The notes under the pieces: generated by a model | Database searches by the model: none | Seen by the model: only the letters and a program-made list of their open reading frames with translations | What the model was told of the DNA's origin: nothing | Made by a program: the position numbers and the translations under genes | Shown: one piece after another, positions 3 to 14,699 of the stretch | Numbering within the stretch: the stretch's first letter is position 1 | How the letters are laid out: the number at the start of each line of letters is the position of its first letter | Origin: an uncultured Chlorobiaceae bacterium | GTDB lineage: Bacteria > Bacteroidota > Chlorobiia > Chlorobiales > Chlorobiaceae | Assembly (NCBI GenBank): GCA_903871235.1 | Contig: CAIQGA010000225.1 | Coordinates: 1 to 41,287 of the forward strand | Reading direction: 5' to 3' | Length of the DNA stretch: 41,287 nt

Positions 3-2333
3 GGAATTACCGACACCTTTGCATGCCACTTTAATACGCAGGATACGTGGTACACTATCACCGTATCCAGTCATCAGCAGTGGTTTTTTACTTCGGTCAT
101 TAAGAAGATCAATGATGTGCAGCTTGCGCAGAAAGAGCTCCGTCTCAGTAAAGAGCTGTTGGAAGAGGCTGTTGTTGCTGCTCAAGTGGGTATCTGGGAT
201 TGGTTTATTGAGACTGGTGAAGTTTTTGTTAATGAGATATGGGCTGGCATCATCGGCTACACTCTCAAAGAGCTTGAGCCGCTCACGATCAAGACATGGA
301 AGGATCTCCTGCACCCGGACGATTTGAGGCATGCAAATGCCAGTATCCTGCGCTATTTTAATGGAGATGCTGATGACTGCGCTCTCGAATTCCGTATGAG
401 GCATAAAGATGGGCATTGGGTATGGATAAATTGCAGCACCAAAATAGTATCCCGTGCTCCGGAGGGCAAGCCATTGCGATTGCTCGGCGTGCATAGGAAC
501 ATCAACAGCCAGAAAGAGAGCGAACCAGAAGCCAAAAAAAAAGACGATCAGTTCCGCATATTCTTTGACAACCACTCCGAACCCATGCTCTGTATTGAAC
601 CGAATTCTGGAGCTATTGTCAATGCCAACCAGGCTGCCGTGAATTTTTACGGATGGTCGCGTGACGAGCTCTGCAGGATGAGTATAGAGCAGATTAATAC
701 GCTTCCCATGGTTCAGATTTTGGCACAGATGAGAATGGTCGGGGCATCGAACCATGTCAGATTGCCTTCTGTACATTGCACAGTGACAGGCTCTCTGCGC
801 GATGTAGAGGTTTACATGAGCAGTATTCCTGTCGAAGGCCAATTACTGCTCTATTTGGTTATTCATGATGTTACCAAGCGAACACAGGCAGAAGAAAAAG
901 TCAGAAATTTAACCTTGGCGAAGGCAATCAGTGACTGTAACCAGACACTCATTCATGTCACGAATGAGGCCACATTGCTCAAGAAAGTCTGCAACATTCT
1001 CGTTAAAATCGGTGGTTACAGGATGGCATGGGCCGGATATGCTGAGCACGATGAGGCTAAAAGTATCTCTGTTATTGCTGAAGCAGGTTGCTTCAAGGGT
1101 AACCCTCACCATTACCTCCTCTCCTGGGGCGCCTCTCCACAGGGAAGAGGTCCCGTAGGCACCACTCTTCGCACTGGCCACGCATCTGTTATTAATGATA
1201 TTGCCAAAGATCCAACCTTTGCGCTATGGTGCAAAGATGCCCGCAAACATGGTTTTGCATCCCATCTGGTTCTGCCTTTAACTGCTGACAAGGGTGCTTT
1301 TGGCGCCATAGCCATTTATGCAGCAAAATCTTATGCCTTTGAATCGGAGGAGGTGGAGCTTCTGCTCACCCTGGCTCAAAATATCTCCTTTGGGATTTTA
1401 CTCCTGCGCCATCGGAATACGGCTGAATTCTCCAGAAAAGATCGTGAACTCCTGCAGCGCCAATTGTTTAAGAACCAACAGTATAAGCATTTGCTCCGAA
1501 GAGAAGAGGATCAAAAGGATATTAAAAGGGCCAAGAGTGGTGAAAAGGATGCCCTTTTGCTTGCAAAGGAAACCATTGCTGAACTGAGTAAAAGGGAGAA
1601 GCTTTTGCAGGAAGCGCTTGCTTCCGAGCGATTGATCGCCGAACAACAGCGGCGCTTTTTGAGTATGATCTCTCATGAGTATCGCACTCCTATTGCTATT
1701 ATCAATGGGAATCTTGATATTCTTATGTTAAACGAAAAAACGTCATCGACGATTCATGCTAATGCAACGGAGAAGATGAAGCGAGCGGTCAAAAGACTCA
1801 TGGAGGTCATGGATACCTCTCTTGAACAGTGTCGCTTTTTTGATGACGCAAACAGTACTGCATATCAGTTACTTGATCTCCCGGAAATCTTGTGTGAACA
1901 ACTTGCAGATGCCGCTGTATTGTGGCCGGATCGGTTTTATTGCAGTGCCGAGAGCATCAAGGGTATCAGGGTTCTCGCTGATCAAACGTTCCTCAAAGTC
2001 ACGATTTTCAATCTTCTCGATAATGCCCGAAAATACTCACCGCCGAACTCCCCGATTCGGGTCGATTGTCAAAAAGATGGGACAAATGTTGCAGTTCGTA
2101 TCGTCAATCAAGCCGACACCGTTTCACCTTTCATCGGTGAGGATCTTTTCAAAAAGTATGCGAGAGGCAGTAATAGTGCCAATTCCGGTGGTGCCGGAAT
2201 GGGACTTTGGCTGGTTCGTGAGATTGTAGAGATGTACCATGGTACGATAACGATCGAGAGCGAGCCTCAAGGTATTGTCGCAACATTGCGCCTTCCTTTT
2301 GTCGATGACGCAACTTCCATTCAACCGAATTAA
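3..2333 (+). CDS. Sensor histidine kinase, PAS-PAS-GAF-HisKA-HATPase (5' end outside window)
   Basis: The reading frame is open to the left edge of the window, so this is the last 776 residues of a longer kinase. Counting from base 3, residues 1-38 look like the end of another PAS/PAC unit. A PAS fold follows at about 55-170, a second PAS at about 186-300 and a GAF domain at about 306-478. A long charged helical linker then leads to the H-box (SMISHEYRTP, His558 by this numbering). The ATPase domain has an N-box (NLLDNARKYSP) and a glycine-rich G2 region (SGGAGMGLW), but no DxGxG G1 motif; that position reads VNQADTVSP. It should autophosphorylate on His558 and pass phosphate to the regulator encoded 13 bases downstream. 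No membrane segment is visible, so it is probably a cytosolic sensor unless the missing N terminus holds one. The ligand is unknown. Confidence 0.9.
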   Translation, partial: GITDTFACHFNTQDTWYTITVSSHQQWFFTSVIKKINDVQLAQKELRLSKELLEEAVVAAQVGIWDWFIETGEVFVNEIWAGIIGYTLKELEPLTIKTWKDLLHPDDLRHANASILRYFNGDADDCALEFRMRHKDGHWVWINCSTKIVSRAPEGKPLRLLGVHRNINSQKESEPEAKKKDDQFRIFFDNHSEPMLCIEPNSGAIVNANQAAVNFYGWSRDELCRMSIEQINTLPMVQILAQMRMVGASNHVRLPSVHCTVTGSLRDVEVYMSSIPVEGQLLLYLVIHDVTKRTQAEEKVRNLTLAKAISDCNQTLIHVTNEATLLKKVCNILVKIGGYRMAWAGYAEHDEAKSISVIAEAGCFKGNPHHYLLSWGASPQGRGPVGTTLRTGHASVINDIAKDPTFALWCKDARKHGFASHLVLPLTADKGAFGAIAIYAAKSYAFESEEVELLLTLAQNISFGILLLRHRNTAEFSRKDRELLQRQLFKNQQYKHLLRREEDQKDIKRAKSGEKDALLLAKETIAELSKREKLLQEALASERLIAEQQRRFLSMISHEYRTPIAIINGNLDILMLNEKTSSTIHANATEKMKRAVKRLMEVMDTSLEQCRFFDDANSTAYQLLDLPEILCEQLADAAVLWPDRFYCSAESIKGIRVLADQTFLKVTIFNLLDNARKYSPPNSPIRVDCQKDGTNVAVRIVNQADTVSPFIGEDLFKKYARGSNSANSGGAGMGLWLVREIVEMYHGTITIESEPQGIVATLRLPFVDDATSIQPN

Positions 2334-2346
2334 CAGCTCTCATCCT

Positions 2347-3099
2347 ATGAGTCAGGAAAACGAGACGAAATTTACTTCGCATCACAAGATCATCATGATT
2401 GAAGATGACAATGATCTCAGAGAGAGCTTGATACTCTATCTTGCCATGAACGGTTATGATATCATCGGAGTCGGTTCAGCCCTGGAGTTCTATCAGCATA
2501 TCACTACCGCAAAATATGCACTGGCTATTGTCGATATAGGTCTTCCTGATCAGGATGGCCGAGTGCTCTCAGAGTATCTGAAAGCCAATACCGATATTCG
2601 CATTATTATGCTAACAGCCCGTGCAACACTCGCAGACAAGCTCTCTGGCTATCATTCAGGTGCCGATATCTACCTGGTCAAGCCGGTGGACTTTGGCGAA
2701 ATAGCCGCGGCTGTTGCGGCGGTACTCATTCGTATCGAAAGTTCACCCTCAGCTTCACTTTCTCTTGTTAAAGAACAGAAAACCATCCGGGAGGTTACGG
2801 TTACTCCATGGACATTCATGAACAGCGAATGGTTACTGATGACGCCGCTTGGGGTAAAAATCAAACTTACTGGAAAGGAGTTTAAATTTCTTCAATGCCT
2901 CCTCTCTTACCATAAAAAAGAGGTATCGCGCGATCTGATTCTCAAAAGCCTTGGCTACCCGGATGATACCGCCGGAGGTGCTGCCCTTGAAACGCTTGTG
3001 CATCGCATTCGTCAAAAAACTGATAAAGGGGCGCCCTCTCCGATTCGCACCATTCACGGCGTCGGATACAGTTTTATAGCCGACATTGTGATGGCATAG
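2347..3099 (+). CDS. OmpR/PhoB-type response regulator (receiver plus winged helix)
   Basis: This 250-residue protein has an N-terminal receiver with acidic pair Glu19/Asp20, phospho-acceptor Asp63 (AIVDIGLPDQDG) and the conserved Lys in LVKPVDF. A C-terminal winged-helix DNA-binding domain follows (LTGKEFKFLQCLLSY; ETLVHRIRQKTDKG; IRTIHGVGYSF), the usual OmpR/PhoB layout and length. I chose the ATG at 2347 because the frame can begin further upstream only by overlapping the end of the kinase gene, and the receiver starts right after 2347. It lies 13 bases behind the kinase stop, so the two are almost certainly a cognate pair in one transcript. Target genes cannot be read from the sequence. 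Confidence 0.92.
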   Translation: MSQENETKFTSHHKIIMIEDDNDLRESLILYLAMNGYDIIGVGSALEFYQHITTAKYALAIVDIGLPDQDGRVLSEYLKANTDIRIIMLTARATLADKLSGYHSGADIYLVKPVDFGEIAAAVAAVLIRIESSPSASLSLVKEQKTIREVTVTPWTFMNSEWLLMTPLGVKIKLTGKEFKFLQCLLSYHKKEVSRDLILKSLGYPDDTAGGAALETLVHRIRQKTDKGAPSPIRTIHGVGYSFIADIVMA

Positions 3100-3580: not shown

Positions 3581-5140
3581 ATGAGCATGAGTTACATTGA
3601 AAGCAAAGAGTTTCTCAAGAATATTTATGACAAGGTGAACTACTCTATTTTTGTTGTCGATGTTCTGCCGGAAGGTACCTATCGGTTCAAGAGTATTAAT
3701 CCGCTTCATGAAACACTGACCGATATCACAAGCCAAGAGGTTTATGGCAAAACCCCTGAACAAATACTTTCGCCCGCTGCGGCAAAATCGATTATGCAGC
3801 ACTATGACGAGTGTGTTCGAGCAGGTTACTCAATCCAGTATGAAGTGTCTCTGACGTTCAAGGGGGAAAACTCTTTTTGGGAGACGGAGCTGAACCCTGT
3901 TTGTCAAAAGGATGGCACCATTTTCAGAATTATCGGCACCAGCATCAACATCACGGAACGCAAGCAAATTGAGGAGGAGAGGGCGAAACTTGCAGTTCAG
4001 CTTCAGCAGTCGCAGAAAATGGAGATAATCGGGCGACTGGCTGGAGGTATAGCTCATAATTTCAACAATATGCTGACAGTTATTCTTGGCCAAGCTGAAA
4101 TGGCCATGGAAGAGAGTGACCCAGCGACGCCAACCTATGCAGATTTTGATGTAATACGACAGGCAGCAACCCGTTCTGCCACTCTGACCCAGCAACTGCT
4201 TGCTTTTGCGCAGAAACAGACGATCACTCCACAAATTATTGAGCTGAACACCGCAGTTGCACAGATGCTACCCATGTTGCGGCATCTCATCGGTGAACAT
4301 ATCACCCTGATATGGATTCCGGGATGCAAAAACTGCCATCTCAACATTGATCCATCACAGATTGAACAGATTCTTGTTAATCTCTGTATCAACGCTCGTG
4401 ATGCGATAACTGGTAACGGCAGAATTACCATCGAAAGCAGGAGCTTTTCAGTGCCCGAAGTTATCCATGACGCTGACGGTCTCCCGGCAGAGTATGTTTC
4501 ACTTTCCGTGCATGATAATGGATGCGGTATTGAGCAAGACGATCTTCAACATATTTTTGAACCCTTTTTTACTACAAAAAAAAGCAGAAACGGTACAGGC
4601 CTCGGTCTTTCAAGCGTTTACGGAATTGTTAAACAGAACAACGGCACTATTGACTGCCTGAGTGAAACGGAAAAAGAGACAACCATCACCATTCGTCTTC
4701 CCCTGTACAGAGTCCAATCAAAAACTGAACAGGAAGCACTACCGGAGGAATCAATCAAGAAAGGCTATCAAACAATCCTGCTTGTGGAGGATGAACCAAC
4801 CATTCTCAAAATGTGCAAGCTCATCCTTGAACGCTGCGGGTATACCGTGCTGGCATTCGAAAGAGCCGTAGACGCTCTCGAAATAGAAGAGGGTTTCCAT
4901 GGAACGATTGACCTCCTGGTGACCGATGTTATGATGCCGGAAATGAATGGATGCGATCTTGCAAAAAAGCTCCTTTTCATGCGTCCTGACTTCAAAATAC
5001 TCTTTATATCAGCCTGCGCCACGGACTTTATCACTCAAAGCATGGGAATTGACCATCAGTTTAACATTCTTCAGAAACCGTTCAATCAGAATGCGCTGGC
5101 AACAATCGTCTCTACTATCCTCAATGCAGAAGTTGCTTGA
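3581..5140 (+). CDS. Hybrid histidine kinase, PAS-HisKA-HATPase-receiver
   Basis: The 519-residue protein starts with a PAS domain (about 8-130, ending with a PAC-type [15 protein letters not shown]). The H-box follows ([17 protein letters not shown], His159), then the ATPase with N-box NLCINARDA and G-boxes [10 protein letters not shown] and [11 protein letters not shown]. The C-terminal receiver (about 398-515) has VEDEP, phospho-acceptor Asp449 ([12 protein letters not shown]) and LQKPFNQ. The GIAHNFNN form of the H-box is typical of soluble hybrid kinases. There is no DNA-binding output domain and no membrane segment, so phosphate probably passes to a separate regulator, perhaps the single receiver at 10147-10563. 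ATG codons at 3581 and 3587 are both possible starts. Confidence 0.92.
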
Positions 5141-5215: not shown

Positions 5216-6091
5216 ATGAGACCAAAAGACGGAGTTACGTTGTCGAGCGGTTACAGGGCGCTTGAGAACGCCAATAATATATCCTATGTGCTGATCCGAG
5301 GTGGTGAGTTTACGATGGGAAGCCCGCTGAGTGAGTTTGATCGCCAAAGCTGGGGGAGCGATGGAATTCAGTATCAGGTAATAGTAAGTGACTTTTATAT
5401 GGGAAAGTATGCGGTGACGGTTGCGGAGTTCAGAAAATTTGTGTATGCATCAGGATACCATACCGATGCTGATAAAGCGGATTATAGCGTTATTGGCAAC
5501 CGCAAGGCGAAAATGGCGGAGGGAGTAAACTGGCGTTATGGCGTATCAGGCATTATGCGACCTCAGAGTGAAGAGAATCATCCGGTGGTGCACGTGAGCT
5601 GGAATGACGCAGTGGCGTACTGCAAATGGCTCTCAGCAAAAACGGGGAAAAGGTTTTATCTGCCAACCGAAGCGGAGTGGGAATACGCCTGCCGTGCGGG
5701 AAGCCGAACGCCGTTCAATACGGGAGAAAACCTGACGACTAAACAGGCAAATTATGACGGAAACTATCCATACAACAATAATCCGAAAGGGATTTGCCGG
5801 CAGAACACCGTTGCGGTAAACAGTTTTGCTCCCAATGCGTGGGGGCTGTACAACATGCATGGCAACGTTGATGAGTGGTGCAGCGACTGGTATAGTGGAG
5901 GATATTATGACGAATGTAAAGCAAGAGGCACGGTTACCAATCCCGCAGGGCCGGAAGCGGGTTCGTACCGTGTGCTTCGCGGCGGGGGCTGGCGCAGCGG
6001 CGCCGAGTATTGTCGGTCGGCTGATCGTATCTGCACCTCCCCCGACAACCAGGAACACTACATTGGCTTCCGCCTGGCCTTCATCCCGTAG
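5216..6091 (+). CDS. FGE-sulfatase / C-type-lectin-fold protein with a DGR-like variable C terminus
   Basis: The 291-residue protein is one formylglycine-generating-enzyme-type domain (about 20-290): it opens with VLIRGGEFTMGSP, continues with NHPVVHVSWNDAVAYCKWLS, LPTEAEWEYACRAG and NMHGNVDEWCSDWY, and closes with RVLRGGGW...GFRLAF. A plausible Shine-Dalgarno (AGGGA) precedes the ATG. It has no signal peptide. Catalytic FGEs carry two cysteines in the last segment (human Cys336 and Cys341). Here the first aligns with Ser261 and only the second is kept (Cys266), so sulfatase-activating chemistry is doubtful and ligand binding is more likely. The last 40 codons resemble the variable region of DGR target proteins. 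It follows the hybrid kinase by 75 bases on the same strand and may share its transcript. Confidence 0.88.
   Translation: MRPKDGVTLSSGYRALENANNISYVLIRGGEFTMGSPLSEFDRQSWGSDGIQYQVIVSDFYMGKYAVTVAEFRKFVYASGYHTDADKADYSVIGNRKAKMAEGVNWRYGVSGIMRPQSEENHPVVHVSWNDAVAYCKWLSAKTGKRFYLPTEAEWEYACRAGSRTPFNTGENLTTKQANYDGNYPYNNNPKGICRQNTVAVNSFAPNAWGLYNMHGNVDEWCSDWYSGGYYDECKARGTVTNPAGPEAGSYRVLRGGGWRSGAEYCRSADRICTSPDNQEHYIGFRLAFIP
5969..6091 (+). other. Candidate DGR variable region (VR) at the 3' end of the FGE-like gene
   Basis: From residue 260 to 282, the codons at predicted surface positions are mostly NNC: CGC, AGC, GGC and GCC near the start, then ATC, TGC, ACC and TCC, and finally CAC and TAC. Conserved framework codons (Trp259, Cys266, Arg267, Ser268, Arg271, Pro276, Asp277, Asn278, Gly284, Phe285, Arg286) sit between them. 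This is what adenine-specific mutagenesis of an AAC-rich template gives, because A can change while C stays. Known DGR targets place this region at the extreme C terminus of the same fold. GAG264, TAT265, CAG279 and GAA280 are less easily explained. No template repeat, Avd or reverse transcriptase gene was found in this window. Confidence 0.55.
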
Positions 6092-6102
6092 TCAGTTGGC
6101 TG

Positions 6103-6528
6103 TCAGTTCATCGTGGAATTAAAAAAAATGCCCTGTGCCAATGACTTCCGTCCTTCGGAGAGCCATACTCTTATCGTATCAAGTGGCTTGCCGATTATTC
6201 TGGATATGGCTTGATGTTTAAGCTTGGGAATTGCCGATAACAAAACGGTTAACCTTACATCCGCAACCTGTTTGACAAGTGAGTGTTCAAGCGTTTGCTC
6301 CAAAAAGCACGGAGTTTCAGGCAACCCTGATTCATCATTACTGACCGTACTGTCAAAATAACAGAGTCTGAACGCTTTGAAGACCTCTATGTCGGAACTT
6401 CCATTGGCAACATTAAGATAGGTATTGTTGACGAGTTCTGTCGCCTCAAATTCAGAACCCGTCAACCAGTATGCAAGGCTGTAAATATCATCCATCAAGT
6501 CAAGAGGTGTTCTTTTTGCTGTAAGCAT
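6103..6528 (-). CDS. Small sigma-70/ECF-like protein
   Basis: The 141-residue protein has an N-terminal part resembling sigma region 2 (DLMDDIYSLAYWLTGSEFEA, then an aligned helix ending in NNTYLNV). A C-terminal part resembles the region 4 helix-turn-helix (LTVLLSAIPKLKHQAISRII, then PLDTIRVWLSEGRKSL). It is shorter than usual ECF factors (about 170-200), and the region 2.3/2.4 and linker sequence looks worn, so it may be a degenerate or specialised sigma-like regulator. It converges on the FGE-like gene with only 11 bases between stops. No anti-sigma gene is adjacent. Confidence 0.6.
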   Translation of the reverse strand: MLTAKRTPLDLMDDIYSLAYWLTGSEFEATELVNNTYLNVANGSSDIEVFKAFRLCYFDSTVSNDESGLPETPCFLEQTLEHSLVKQVADVRLTVLLSAIPKLKHQAISRIIGKPLDTIRVWLSEGRKSLAQGIFFNSTMN

Positions 6529-7076: not shown

Positions 7077-10000
7077 ATGAAGTTCCATACACCAGTCGAT
7101 AAGATCACACATACTGAAGTCACCGAAAAAAAGGGTGACTCCACACTGCTTTCCTTGTTTCATTCCTTTCCCGATGTTGTTTTTGTTATTTCTCCCAAAG
7201 GCATTATCCTCGATGCCAATCAGGCTTTTGCTGCCCAGTTCAATAAACGCCCGGAAGAGTTCTTTGGCCTGAATGTGTTCAATTTTTTGCCACCGGATGT
7301 TGGAACTGCACGCATGAAAATGATGCAAGAGGCCGCGCTTACCGCAAGACCGCTTACCTTTGACGATGAAAGTAATGGGCGACTGGTGCGCAGTACCATC
7401 TATCCCTATACATCTCCAGAAGGTAACGTAGACCGGCTTCTTGTCATCGCGCAAGATATCACCGATATCGAGCAGTTGCTGAAAAAAGAGCAGCTCTTCA
7501 ATAAGCAGATCATCAATGCTATCCCCGGAACCTTTTACATCGTTGATGCAAACGGAAAGTTTGTTGCATGGAACGATCACGTCCGAGACAGAAGCTTTGG
7601 GGTACGAGATGATGAAATGGCTGAGACTATCGGGTTCGATGCCTTCCATCCGGACGATCGGGAGCGAGCCATCGAAGCAATGCAGAATGTCATGAAGAAT
7701 GGCTCGGAAGTGGTTGGCGAATACCGGATAGTGCTTCGAGGAGCCCCTGATGTCGAGTGGCGACTCATAACCGCCAAAAGGATCGTGATTGATGGCGATC
7801 CCTTTCTTATCGGCGTGGGCATTGATATCACTGAACGCAAACGTGCGGAAGAGCTATTTAAAAAAAGTGAGGTGCGGTTCAGAACACTTTTCAACAGCCA
7901 GTCGGCCATCCAGGCTCTCCTTGATCCCGATACGGGAAAAGTGCTTGACGTCAATCAAACAGCCGCAAAGTGGTATGGATGGAGCATTGAGGAGCTCAAG
8001 CAGATGTATACCAGGGATATCAATACTCTTTCGCAGGCAGAGATTGAAAAAAGCCTGAAAACCGTAGATGCCAAAGAACACAATAAATTCATAGGTCGCC
8101 ACAGAAGGGCGGACGGCTCCATACGGGATGTGGAGATATTCCGTAACCGGATAGAGGTCGATGGGAAATCGGTTATTCACGTCATTACCCATGATATCAC
8201 CGAGCGCAAACTGGCTGAAGCTGAACTTGAGCGGCTGAATCGTGTACTTATAGTGAGCGACTATTGCAACGAGGCTCTGATTCAGGCACAAGATGAACGA
8301 GAACTGCTGAACAAAATTTGCAGCATCATCGTTGAATCCGGTGGTTACCGGATGGCGTGGGTTGGGTATGCACGGGATGATGAGGCAAAAAGCTTGCAAC
8401 TTGCCACCTCGGCGGGAAGTACCGGTGATTATTTTGAATCGGCGACCATATCCTGGGCCGATGACCAGTATGGGCAAGGTCCTGCAGGAACGGCCATACG
8501 TACAGGGCAACCAGTTACTGTAAATCATATCCTGATCAATCCAGAGTTCGAAAAATGGCGAACTCATTCAATAAAAAACGGTTATGCGGCTGTTCTGGGT
8601 TTACCGTTATCTATCGACAATCGTGTGATTGGAGCATTGACGATTTATTCGGGAGTAGCAGACGCCTTTAATGCAGCCGAAACCCTGCAGCTCTCTTCAG
8701 TTGCAAATAATCTTGCCTATGGCATCAAGATGCTGCGAAAGGATGATGCACTGAGAAAAAATGAACAGATCAATGCATTACGGCTCCGCATACTCCAGAT
8801 GGCTGAAACTCGAACGGTTGAGGAGCTGCTGACAGCAACGCTTGATGAAGCGGAAAGGCTGACAGGAAGCTTGACCGGGTTTGTCTCTTTTGTTGCTGAA
8901 GATCAAAATTCACTTTTGCTGCAGTCGCTCTCAACCAACACCCGTCTCAAAATGAGCAAGGTTGAGAGAAAAGGACTCTACCTTCCGCTGGACAAGGCGG
9001 GTATATGGGCAGATGCTGTCCGAGAGAAAAAAGCGGTTATCCATAATGATTATCTTGCACTCAAGCTGCGCGAGGGAATGCCGCAGAGCCATGCTGAAAT
9101 AAGGCGCGAACTGGTTATTCCAGTCAACCGTGACGGCAAAATAGTGGCTATCATGGGAGTCGGGAGCAAGCAGAGTGACTATGATAATGATGATACTCAA
9201 TACATAGAGTTGATTGCCAATCATATCTGGGATATCGTTGCCAAAAAGATTGCGGAAGAGGAAAAAAGGGAGCTTGCGGCCCAGCTTCAGCAAGCAATGA
9301 AAATGGAGATGATTGGCCAGCTTGCTGCCGGAATTGCGCACGAAATCAATAACCCGCTCAACTTTATTACCCTCAATGCGCATGTTATCCTGGAGGATTT
9401 TAACGATCTTGGTGCATTTGTGTATCAGTACCGCCAAATAATTGAAAAAGTAACAACAGGAGGTGCTGATACTGAAGAGGTGAAGCGACTCCATGAAAAA
9501 GAGATAGCGATTAATATTGATGAGCTCCTCAAAAGTATCCCTGACGCTCTTGAAAAATTACAGCATGGAATTGAACGTATATCGACCATCACCCACAGCA
9601 TGAGAAGCTACTCTTTCAAGAACTCCGGTGAGCAGTTATTCCAGTTCGATCTCAATAAGGCAATTCATGAGGCCCTTGTCATTGCAAAACACGAATACAG
9701 TAACATCGCCACGGTTGTCTTGAACCTTGAAGAACTACCGCAGCTCTTTTGCGATCCGGCTCAAATCAGTCAGGTAATTCTCAATCTTGTTATCAACAGC
9801 AGTCATGCCATCAAGTCACAAAACAGAAGCTCTTTTGGTAAGATTGAGATTAAAACATGGGTAAACGGTGAAAGCGTCTCTTGCTCAGTTACTGATGATG
9901 GTCCGGGAATTCCTGAAAAAATGATAAGCAGGATATTTGAACCCTTCTTTACGACCAAGGAACCAGGGAAAGGAACGGGGCTGGGATTAAGCATCTGTTA

Positions 10001-10109
10001 TGACATCATTGTCAATAAGCATAAAGGAAGCCTCACCGCCTCCTGTTTGGCAGAAGGTGGCACGGTGTTTGTGTTTACATTGCCGATAACAAAAATGCCA
10101 AGCGCCTAA
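7077..10109 (+). CDS. Large sensor histidine kinase, PAS-PAS-PAS-GAF-GAF-HisKA-HATPase
   Basis: The 1010-residue protein has three PAS units (about 22-135, 142-251 and 262-380, the last two ending in DITERK-type PAC motifs). Two GAF domains follow (about 390-555 and 570-725), then a short coiled linker. The H-box is [17 protein letters not shown] with His755. An extended helical insert precedes the ATPase domain: N-box [11 protein letters not shown]1 [11 protein letters not shown]-box [14 protein letters not shown]2 [12 protein letters not shown]. The first GAF and third PAS closely resemble those of the first kinase in the window (GGYRMAW.GYA and NQ.A..WYGWS..EL), which suggests domain duplication and shuffling. 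No transmembrane segment is visible, so it should sense an intracellular or diffusible signal. No regulator lies on its strand; the receiver at 10147-10563 converges on it. Confidence 0.93.
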
Positions 10110-10989: not shown

Positions 10990-12810
10990 CTACGGTTTCG
11001 GCTCTGCTTTTTTAGGCAGATCAATTTGTAGACTCAGCTCCTTGAGCTGAACGGGCGTCACCGCCGAAGGTGAGCCCATCATGAGATCCTGCGCCTGCTG
11101 GTTCATGGGGAAGGCGATGACTTCACGGATATTCTGTTCGTCACAGAGGATCATGACCATGCGGTCAAGTCCGGGCGCGATGCCTCCGTGGGGTGGGGCT
11201 CCAAGCTTGAAGGCTTCGATCATGTGACCAAAGCGCAGGTCAACCTCTTCACGACTGTATCCGGCAATACCGAAAGCCTTGTACATGATTTCGGGCTTGT
11301 GGTTGCGGATGGCGCCGCTTGAGAGTTCAATGCCGTTGCAGACGATGTCGTACTGGTAGGCGAGAATATCGAGTGGCGACATGGTTTCGAGCGCCTCCAT
11401 CTCTCCCTGTGGCATGGAGAAGGGGTTGTGTGAAAAGTCGATCTTTTTGGCCTCTTCGTTGTACTCGAACATCGGGAAGTCAACAATCCAGCAGAAAGAG
11501 AGTTCATCCTTGTCGAGCGAAAAGAGATCGCCAAAGTATGTTCTCATCCCGCCCATGATTTTGCAGGTCGCGGCCCACTTCCCCGCTCCGAAAAAGACGA
11601 CGTCGCCATTTTCAAGAGCAAGGTGGCTTTTGAGTGTTGAGAGATCGGCTTCGGAAAGAAACTTGACCACCGGCCCTTTTGGCCCCTCCTCTTTGAACTG
11701 AATATAGGCAAGACCGCCTGAACCGAGCTCTTTGGCCCGTTTTTCGGCCTTGTCGTAAAAAAGCCTCGATTCATTGCCGCGCCCCTTGAGCACCAGCGCC
11801 TTGACGCAGGAGCCCTCTACAGTGCTGTTGGCAAAGACCTTGAAGGCTGAACCGACAAAGAGCGGGGTGACATCGCTGATTTCGAGCGGAATACGCAGGT
11901 CGGGTTTGTCGGTGCCGAAACGGTTCATCACCTCTTTGTAGCTGATCCTCGGGAAGGGGAACCGGGTGATGCGCTTGTGCGACATGGTGGTGGTGAGGTG
12001 CTCAATCATCCCTTCAAGGATAGAAAAGAGATCGTCCTGCTCAATGAAGGCCATCTCCATATCAAGCTGGTAGAACTCGCCGGGGCTGCGGTCGGCACGG
12101 GCATCTTCATCCCGAAAACAGGGGGCTATCTGGAAGTAGCGGGGAAAGCCCGATACCATCAGGAGCTGCTTGAACTGCTGAGGTGCCTGGGGCAGAGCGT
12201 AGAATTTACCCGGATGGAGGCGGCTTGGAACAAGAAAGTCGCGTGCACCCTCAGGTGAGCTGGAAGTGAGAATTGGTGTCTGTATTTCAATAAAATCCTT
12301 CGCTTCGAGGTAGCGGCGCATGGCGGCGGTGAGGCGGCTGCGGAAAATAATATTTTCGTGAATTTTTTCACGGCGCAGGTCGATGAAGCGATATTTCAAC
12401 CTCAGCTCTTCGGAGGTCTGCACTTCGTCGGCCACCGGAAAGGGCAGGGTTTGCGCATTGCTCTCAACCGAGATCTGGCTGAGAACCACTTCAATTTCGC
12501 CTGATGCGAGGCGGGGGTTGATGGCACCCGGAGCGCGCCGGACAACGACACCCTCGACACAGATCACTGATTCAATATGCAGTTGCTCCGCTATGGCGAA
12601 GAGCTCCTGCTGCTCAGGCTGGATAACGAGCTGGCTGAGACCGGTATGATCTCTCAGATCAATAAAAATAAGCCCCCCGTGATCCCGTTTTCTATGGACC
12701 CAGCCAGCAAGTCTGACAGAGCCGTGCTCACGCTCCGGACTGAGTAATCCGCAATAATCAGAGCGGAACCGGTTTTTCAGAATCTGCGTGCTCTCTGCAG
12801 CTTTTTTCAT
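10990..12810 (-). CDS. aspS: Aspartyl-tRNA synthetase, bacterial type
   Basis: It charges tRNA-Asp (and possibly tRNA-Asn) with aspartate. The 606-residue protein has the N-terminal anticodon-binding OB fold ([20 protein letters not shown]), class II motif 2 ([20 protein letters not shown]), a central GAD insertion and motif 3 ([18 protein letters not shown]), and ends with the usual QLKEL tail. Length is normal for bacterial AspRS. The frame extends 12 codons upstream, but the ATG at 12810 gives the expected N terminus and has GACAGGAAT just before it. It is followed by about 190 bases without a gene and preceded by dnaX on the same strand. Whether it is discriminating or non-discriminating cannot be told without knowing if gatCAB is present. 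Confidence 0.97.
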
Positions 12811-12915: not shown

Positions 12916-14699
12916 TCAATAGACCAGCTCCCCTCCAAATTCGGTGACAAGAAAGCGAATGACCTCATTGTGCTGTGAAAGCTCCTGAAAAATAGTAAAA
13001 ACTGTTTTTTCTCTCGTACAGGCATCTTTTTCGGCATCATAAGAGATACGGATCTGGAGCGGCAGGGCATAAAACTCTGAAATTTCCTGCTGAAGTTCCG
13101 CCCGTTCCTGCTGAATCTCCTCGTAAGAAAACTTTCGGCAACAGGAAATGTCGAGCACACCGCCGGGAGTGCAGGCAACCAGCTCGCATGATTGCAGATG
13201 CGTTGCCATAAGGTTTTTAGGTTTTTTGGCCATATACTCAAGAAACTGGTGCCATTCAACCCTGAGCAAGGAAAGATCAGCCACATGCTCAGTACCTTCG
13301 GGATGCGCCGTGTCGGGGAGACTCTTGGGAAGTACCTGCGGCAATGCTGAATTGGAGGCAAAGCTTGAGAGCTTTTTCTGCCATGAACCAAGATCAAACC
13401 CGCCGCTTTCGGAGAGCTTCGCGGCTGGCGCAGTTACCGAGAGGGATGGTGCGGAGGGTACAGAGAGTGGAGCAGCAGGAGCTGACTCTTTTTTCAGGGG
13501 CTTGTCAGGTACTTTTTTTTTTGATCCCGCAGTTGAGGTTGTGTTTCCACCGCGATGGCAGCCAACGGCACGGCGTGCACAATGTCAATCAATTTCAGCA
13601 GTGCAAGCTCAAAACGAAACTGGTATTCAAACTGAAACTTCAGCTCTTTCTGGGTGAGCAGAAGAAAGTCAACCATCTGCATGACCGCAAAAGGGGAAAA
13701 ATTGGCGGCATCACGCAGGTAGCGCTCACGGATTGCATCGGGACGCTCGACCAGACGGGTTGAGGAGAGATTCTGTACCACCAGAAAATTTCGCAAATGC
13801 TCAATCAGCTTTTCAAGAAAATCCTGCTCGTCATAGCCGTTCCTGATAACAAACTGCGCCACGTCAAGCATTTTTGACGCACTGCGCTCCGCAACGGCAT
13901 CCGTAACCTCAAAGAGGTGGTCATCGTCAATATAGTTCAGCAATTCAGAAACGCCGAGGTAGGTGATACTTCCCGTGTGATCGTTCTCGGCTGAAAATGC
14001 AATAACCTGATCAAGAATGCTCTGTGCATCGCGCATGGAGCCCTGTGCCTTGCGACCGATAAGCTGCAAAGCGTCGCCGTCAACCTTTATCTGCTCGGCG
14101 TCACAGATCAGTTGCAGTTGCTTCTGAATCTCCTCAAGCGGAATACGTTTGAAATTGAACCGCTGGCAGCGGGAGGCAATAGTTGCCGGAATTTTATGGA
14201 GTTCCGTGGTGGCAAAAATGAAAATTGCGTGGGGCGGCGGCTCCTCAAGGGTTTTCAGGAATGCATTGAATGCGGCAATGGAGAGCATGTGTACCTCGTC
14301 AATAATATAGACGCGGTAGATTCCCTTCTGCGGCCCGTAGCGCACATTTTCACGCAAGGTGCGGATATCGTCAACGCTGTTGTTGGAGGCAGCATCAAAC
14401 TCCGCAATATTCATGCTGGTACCGGCATCAAAGTCGCGACAGCTTTCGCACTCTCCGCAAGGCTCGGTCACTTTCTGGAGGTACTCGGCATCCTCCATCA
14501 TCTTCTGGCAGTTCAGTGCCTTGGCGAAAACCCTTGCGGCGGTTGTTTTGCCAACGCCGCGCAATCCCGAAAAAATATACCCATGCCCTACACGGCCCAT
14601 GCGCAGTGAATTCTGGATAGTACGGGTAACATGCTCCTGTGCGGTGATGTCAGCAAATTTTGCTGGCCTGTACTTTCGGGCTATAACCTGATAACTCAT
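12916..14699 (-). CDS. dnaX: DNA polymerase III tau subunit, made by a -1 frame change at an A10 run
   Basis: Reading zero frame from 14699 to 13515 and then the -1 frame to 12916 gives one continuous 594-residue protein. The first 395 residues are the clamp-loader ATPase. The -1 part (199 residues) starts with a Pro/Ala/Ser-rich linker and runs into a folded C-terminal domain (LRVEWHQFLEYMAKKPKNL; LQIRISYDAEKDACT), as expected for a tau C terminus. The -1 frame has no stop between the A run and 12918, so coding there is clearly under selection. Tau tethers polymerase and helicase at the fork. The change could be ribosomal -1 shifting, transcript slippage adding one A, or an undercounted homopolymer in the sequence. 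Confidence 0.8.
13494..14699 (-). CDS. dnaX: DNA polymerase III gamma-like short product (zero frame of dnaX)
   Basis: The zero-frame product is 401 residues. It has Walker A (GLRGVGKTT, residues 45-53), a zinc-binding cysteine set (ALNC and CGECESC), Walker B (YIIDEVHML), the sensor 1 region (FATTELHKIPATIASRCQRF) and the helical collar domain. It stops six codons after the A10 run (KKKYLTSP). This is the AAA+ clamp-loader core without the tau tail, equivalent to gamma in E. coli. Its ATG overlaps the stop of the YihY-family gene by four bases, so the two are co-transcribed and coupled. Confidence 0.85.
   Translation of the reverse strand: MSYQVIARKYRPAKFADITAQEHVTRTIQNSLRMGRVGHGYIFSGLRGVGKTTAARVFAKALNCQKMMEDAEYLQKVTEPCGECESCRDFDAGTSMNIAEFDAASNNSVDDIRTLRENVRYGPQKGIYRVYIIDEVHMLSIAAFNAFLKTLEEPPPHAIFIFATTELHKIPATIASRCQRFNFKRIPLEEIQKQLQLICDAEQIKVDGDALQLIGRKAQGSMRDAQSILDQVIAFSAENDHTGSITYLGVSELLNYIDDDHLFEVTDAVAERSASKMLDVAQFVIRNGYDEQDFLEKLIEHLRNFLVVQNLSSTRLVERPDAIRERYLRDAANFSPFAVMQMVDFLLLTQKELKFQFEYQFRFELALLKLIDIVHAVPLAAIAVETQPQLRDQKKKYLTSP
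13512..13523 (-). promoter_or_regulatory. Slippery A10-G run in dnaX (candidate recoding site)
   Basis: On the coding strand the bases are C, ten A, G, read in zero frame as CAA AAA AAA AAG. This contains A AAA AAG in exactly the phase used for the E. coli dnaX -1 shift. No strong upstream Shine-Dalgarno-like element or stable downstream hairpin is obvious; a 5-bp CTGAC/GTCAG pairing starting 5 bases downstream is weak. A homopolymer this long also supports polymerase slippage, as in Thermus dnaX. Confidence 0.7.

Follow-up and report, generated by a model that had tools for sequence, protein, structure and literature searches.

Identification of a probable retired DGR target

The FGE-fold gene at 5216–6091 (+) of the window (the whole stretch of 41,287 nucleotides analyzed here, from contig C225 of Chlorobiaceae genome G000; 3.3 Mb, 234 contigs) was very probably a retired DGR target: a variant made by a DGR and then disconnected, fixed, and inherited across species. 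Its variable region (VR) was considered retired, not live, because it was shared between species, carried non-adenine mismatches to templates, and lacked a 3′ hairpin, and because a relative (G023) kept the DGR cassette together with a frozen copy of the same gene. The window displayed the following features:

117–2333 (+): PAS/GAF histidine kinase HK1 (Pfam); syntenic in G074, G061, and G023
2275–3099 (+): response regulator, named from sequence; syntenic in G074, G061, and G023
3581–5140 (+): hybrid histidine kinase HK2 (PAS, HisKA, HATPase, and receiver; Pfam), 75 bp upstream of the FGE gene; same kinase type beside another frozen FGE lineage in G011, G002, and G023
5216–6091 (+): FGE-fold (C-type-lectin-like) gene, 291 aa, very probably a former DGR target (PF03781; PDB relatives FGE and Treponema TvpA; orthologues in G074, G023, and G061)
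5960–6091 (+): VR, 132 nt that match templates (TRs) of relatives and reach the stop codon (compared with the G019 TR, mismatches at 19/33 A and 8/87 non-A sites, p 1e-7; 11/13 AAC codons still NNC)
5993–6061 (+): VR core, codons 11–33, in which the majority of adenine-derived residues lie; fixed across species (variable positions read YGRSGYDICTSDNEHY in both G000 and G074, with 13/16 of them retained in G023)
5996–5998 (+): AGC (Ser) at the first catalytic FGE cysteine position; AAC in templates (alignment to solved FGEs; TR codons)
6062–6091 (+): 3′ end common to TR and VR (ATTGGCTTCCGC...CCGTAG; TR/VR listing), at an IMH-like position; putative IMH role by analogy with BPP-1
6092–6221 (+): 3′ flank without RGGGACG-loop hairpin (no motif; best stem score of 5, no higher than the mean of shuffled sequences, 5.0; fold −17 kcal/mol versus −25 to −35 in C143, C149, and C219)
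7077–10109 (+): PAS/GAF histidine kinase HK3 (Pfam); syntenic in G074

The open ORF 5216–6091 had the closing codons GSYRVLRGGGWRSGAEYCRSADRICTSPDNQEHYIGFRLAFIP followed by the stop and contained a full PF03781 FGE-sulfatase domain (Pfam, E 5.5e-60). PDB matches of its product were formylglycine-generating enzymes (6s07, E 8e-39), and the C-terminal part also matched the Treponema DGR protein TvpA (2y3c). The FGE fold was recognized by sequence and the catalytic cysteine pair was incomplete, with Ser in place of the first Cys and Cys (TGT) kept as the second; because of this Ser, FGE activity would not be expected of the protein. The AlphaFold model (mean pLDDT 73; VR blocks mostly 50–70) gave too little confidence for positioning the variable residues. 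The first-pass annotation had described a VR-like sequence at the end of an FGE-like gene, an enrichment in NNC codons, and a Ser (AGC) at the first catalytic Cys position inside the variable stretch, and all three were borne out by matches to DGR templates of relatives, by codon counts (see below), and by alignment to solved FGEs, respectively; its start at 5969 was too narrow, the template match beginning at 5960. The short ORF 6103–6528 (−), convergent with the FGE gene, gave no Pfam match and looked by eye like a sigma-factor-like helix-turn-helix.

Comparison of the VR with templates of related genomes

A template with AAC codons was written from the VR copies of G000 before relatives were searched, and its best match in same-genus genomes was 95% (G019), with several others at 92%. 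Most intact template loci in relatives lay directly 3′ of a reverse transcriptase (RT) gene overlapping an HRDC gene. The HRDC-associated RTs harbored IGNLTSQ and YMDD, the motifs of DGR-type RTs. The VR had been proposed to be DGR derived, and a search for an A-rich copy beside an RT and an Avd gene had been suggested: A-rich template copies beside an RT were indeed found in related genomes, none of the FGE type was found in this assembly, and the accessory gene of FGE-type cassettes turned out to be HRDC, Avd being present in the unrelated C142 DGR of the genome.

Compared to the closest template (that of G019), the window VR displayed mismatches at 19 of 33 A and 8 of 87 non-A positions (p 1e-7), a contrast that is by itself partly confounded with the tolerance of positions to change; since exposed positions vary in any FGE paralogue, a codon-position test was added as the stronger evidence. 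Within the A-bearing codons of the template, 19 changes were counted at positions 1 and 2 and two at position 3; third-base C persisted opposite 11 of the 13 AAC codons in the relative's template versus 22% NNC in the remainder of the gene (p 3e-6), and likewise at 12/13 in G074 and 13/13 in G023. The window gene hence had the marks of a former DGR variable protein: AAC-origin codons randomized at positions 1 and 2, position 3 kept, and a C-terminal VR that runs up to the 3′ end common to TR and VR.

These counts bear on the reading that the gene was never a target and is an ordinary FGE paralogue, like those that once served as the source of templates (the DiGReF 'ancestor' paralogues; PMC3521204). 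Some excess mismatch at template A is expected in such a paralogue, its exposed positions being free to vary, and one FGE copy of G000 (C220 11324–11443) had no significant A bias; divergence among paralogues upstream of the VR, however, was richest at codon position 3, where the A-bearing VR codons had hardly changed, and C was kept in 11–13 of 13 AAC codons across three orthologues, which together render this reading highly unlikely.

With the last 161 bases of the window gene as query, nine further strong FGE-type copies were detected in the genome (234 contigs), and the total reached twelve after the search with the predicted template. The VRs of C143, C146, and C219 had 17–22 pairwise differences over 132 positions, none of them at codon position 3; 20/21, 21/22, and 17/17 of these differences fell on an adenine of a relative's template.

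Comparison of orthologues and control VRs

A genus-wide search (65 genomes; most or all of the compared genomes were probably metagenome assemblies) gave orthologues of the window gene in G074 (95% nt identity), G023 (91%), and G061 (95%); the last was cut by a contig end before the VR, and the VR comparison covered G000, G074, and G023. The gene order was HK1–RR–HK2–FGE–HK3 in G074 and HK1–RR–FGE in G023. All 16 adenine-derived VR residues were as in the window in G074 and 13 of 16 in G023, whose three differing residues (two near the 3′ end) could represent one partial late conversion. Recent transfer of the VR does not explain this sharing, because silent divergence between G000 and G023 was not lower in the VR (dS 0.40) than in the rest of the gene (0.18). 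The adenine-derived residues of the window had 0 nonsynonymous changes relative to G074 and a dN of 0.128 relative to G023 (upstream 0.059), values that do not demonstrate purifying selection there.

The control set comprised 115 repeats from the genus (19 template-like and 96 VR-like), and a VR with seven or more non-adenine mismatches was classed as mismatch-laden. The number of variable residues common to VR pairs between genomes was bimodal, 0–9 or 13–16 of 16. At an upstream identity of ≥85%, where the pairs came from few lineages and were not independent, (i) pairs with both VRs clean (n = 21) had 2–7 of 16 residues in common, and (ii) 15 of the pairs with both VRs mismatch-laden (n = 16) had 13–16 of 16 in common. 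The window VR belonged to the mismatch-laden, residue-sharing class: its differences from the template were not confined to adenines, and its orthologues were fixed between species. The ongoing diversification from a distance read by the first-pass annotation was not upheld, since orthologues in two other species carried the same VR while live VRs at that divergence shared 2–7/16; the comparison of orthologues that it had proposed as a check gave ordinary divergence, against ongoing diversification. Low-level diversification within a population may exist beside this between-species fixity.

Frozen VR lineages of the genus numbered at least three: that of the window, C213 (five species), and C88 (four species). 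The frozen FGE VR of C213 (locus L015 1827–1958; L208, L209, L270, and L271) read SFN..R..GHS..GL..YCS in five species, and adenine-derived codons of this lineage had a dN of 0–0.03, compared to 0.02–0.12 upstream (0.07–0.12 among more diverged pairs). This parallel lineage argues against the window VR being a functionless remnant in decay, as has been suggested of leftover targets in Treponema denticola isolates lacking the DGR core (PMC4891356). Decay would agree with the RT and template not being found in the assembly and with the clearly decayed state of other fragments (C17 and C41), but the reading frame of the window gene was intact in the three species with full-length copies, with an upstream dN/dS of about 0.15–0.33, and we regard decay as very unlikely.

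The 3′ hairpin and the frozen state

Clean VRs were mostly followed by a long inverted repeat with the loop RGGGACG, located about 70 nt (48–95 nt) past the stop codon. The loop motif, which had been derived from the clean VRs of this very data set and was absent from 7/44 of them, was present at 37/44 clean VRs versus 6/45 mismatch-laden VRs (Fisher 7e-12), with a background of 13 in 2702 windows of 70 nt. The hairpin was absent 3′ of the VR in the window gene, G074, and G023 (by motif and stem score, and by fold for the window), and the inverted repeat expected downstream of the VR of an active target was thus not found in the window. An example of the long 3′ inverted repeat was seen in locus L017 (C143) after 6063.

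G023 harbored RT, HRDC, and TR, with perfectly matching VRs at other loci, and its own copy of the window gene was frozen; loss of target recognition therefore fits better than loss of the machine. The 3′ hairpin/cruciform of BPP-1, required for efficient retrohoming (PMC3240598), is likewise an inverted repeat downstream of the VR; the loop in BPP-1 and phage DGRs is a 4-nt GRNA, while that of clean Chlorobiaceae VRs is RGGGACG on a long stem, with a putative role, 48–95 nt past the stop. Given the strong association of the hairpin with clean VRs and the frozen copy of G023 despite its cassette, loss of this target element, together with drift from the template, is the likely cause of freezing.

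Search for the cassette in the genome

No RT and no template were present in the window, as the first reading had noted: the two RTs of the genome were located in contigs C97 and C142, the FGE template matched only 5960–6091, and the template of the other DGR gave no significant match. Across the assembly (234 contigs), there was no FGE-type TR, such TRs being found in relatives only (an assembly gap is possible), and no FGE-type RT, a G003-type RT query finding only those of C142 and C97; the assembly thus contained neither the same-genome template nor the matching DGR-type RT of an active target.

Both RT loci were rejected as candidates. C142 (locus L011 10618–15419) was a complete second DGR with RT 13162–14397, bAvd 12430–12810, and a template from 12988, which lacked a significant match in the window and fitted Lcl_C targets. 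Of its two Lcl_C (DUF1566-like) targets, one carried pentapeptide repeats as a fusion and the other a TIR domain; VR1 of this DGR differed from the template at 16/39 A and 1/81 other sites. C97 (locus L012 6022–8193) contained the RT in one frame with a C-terminal half that reads as Cas1 and adjoined CRISPR-Cas-like genes (by sequence reading).

C143 carried tandem NACHT-FGE targets (locus L017 3061–7888), the second of which ran off the contig end; its G011 homologue was directly followed by HRDC-RT-TR. In C146, the likely matching 3′ end (locus L016 4359–6712) was followed by an IS110-family transposase, at the place taken by the HRDC-RT-TR cassette in G011. The shortest among twenty contigs sampled was 1689 bp, and several templates of relatives were at contig ends; because sampled contigs were at least that long and relatives' templates lay at such ends, an assembly gap at the cassette is plausible, as is its loss.

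In the first reading, the window VR would be a live remote target, with an RT and a template of the FGE type, located in another part of the genome, still rewriting 5960–6091 in trans. In favor of this, the assembly is broken at repeats at the expected site of the cassette, other VRs of the genome are fresh (C149 matched a G023 template at 94/94 non-A sites), the C143, C146, and C219 VRs imply one template, and action in trans is reported in Thiohalocapsa (PMC10907252); yet the window VR was identical or nearly so in other species, differed from the closest template known at 8 non-A sites, and lacked the hairpin, and neither the RT nor the template was found in the 234 contigs, so that a live target is very unlikely.

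An IMG/VR scan with the FGE-type RT found no relatives, and a wider genome-contig scan gave distant FGEs and few Chlorobiaceae loci. G019 contig C45 (locus L071) contained an FGE template and a partial RT together with phage terminase, portal, and endolysin genes, and a phage may therefore carry an FGE-type DGR; in G000, C146 had a portal gene near its VR.

Kinase neighborhood

The window and C213 lineages adjoined the same hybrid histidine kinase type, whereas no clean VR did; this linkage of frozen VRs came from two independent lineages only and is considered weak. The C213 lineage adjoined this kinase type in three of five species. Adjacency suggests coupling of the window FGE protein to HK2, and, with only two independent events, a role as fixed sensor module of this kinase is put forward as a hypothesis. 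The protein is, somewhat tentatively, read as probably a ligand-binding C-type-lectin-like module with fixed specificity, not an FGE enzyme, which would be cotranscribed with HK2 and would possibly feed it.

Discussion

For the window gene as a retired target, we propose that (i) mutagenic retrohoming would have copied an FGE-type template into its 3′ end, driven by an HRDC-RT-TR cassette such as other species of the genus still carry, as TR homology and the codon-position pattern support; (ii) rewriting would have ended earlier than the common ancestor of three or more extant species; and (iii) the variant was then inherited with ordinary substitutions, as the orthologues show, freezing being ascribed to hairpin loss and drift.

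Multiple VRs in Chlorobiaceae DGRs, conserved-ancestor paralogues, and VRs with non-adenine mutations (PMC3521204), remote VRs (PMC7517822), leftover targets (PMC4891356), and STAND/FGE sensors acting in trans (PMC10907252) were already known; in the open-licence literature, no description was found of DGR-made variants common to species residue by residue. Cyanobacterial remote variable proteins (PMC7517822) likewise have a C-terminal CLec VR away from the RT and kinase associations, but those VRs are defined by identity to a same-genome template and the kinase is a fused Ser/Thr kinase, whereas the window VR is fixed between species with no template found in its genome, and the kinase is a histidine kinase in the neighboring gene. 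The Treponema denticola leftovers (PMC4891356) share HRDC overlapping RT, an FGE/CLec target, and a VR without its own core cassette, but that work concerns isolates of one species; the window VR is common to different species, with freezing linked to loss of the 3′ hairpin. The DGRs of Chlorobium phaeobacteroides DSM 266 and Pelodictyon phaeoclathratiforme BU-1 (PMC3521204) are also Chlorobiaceae DGRs with several VRs each, located near the RT, while the window VR is distant and mismatch-laden. The NACHT/FGE antigen sensors of Thiohalocapsa PB-PSB1 (PMC10907252) resemble C143 in having FGE/CLec targets fused to STAND NTPases, with several loci per genome and some in trans; the window gene, in contrast, encodes an FGE of one domain only, belongs to a two-component cluster, and does not diversify.

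Work on DGRs usually treats them as machines continually altering their targets, and one gene family here holds both live and frozen products. Finding VR-like codons at a distance from any RT is no evidence of present-day diversification, and comparison of orthologues is needed. Three marks separate live from frozen, namely template match at non-adenine sites, the 3′ hairpin, and residue sharing between species, and they open to test the idea that binding specificities made by DGRs are retired and then retained in bacteria. It is tentatively suggested, as a possibility below even likelihood, that DGRs of the genus may produce receptor specificities that are stable and heritable, hairpin loss disconnecting variants that are then fixed across species, some being recruited beside hybrid histidine kinases; if true, this would be a passage from adaptive to innate repertoire.
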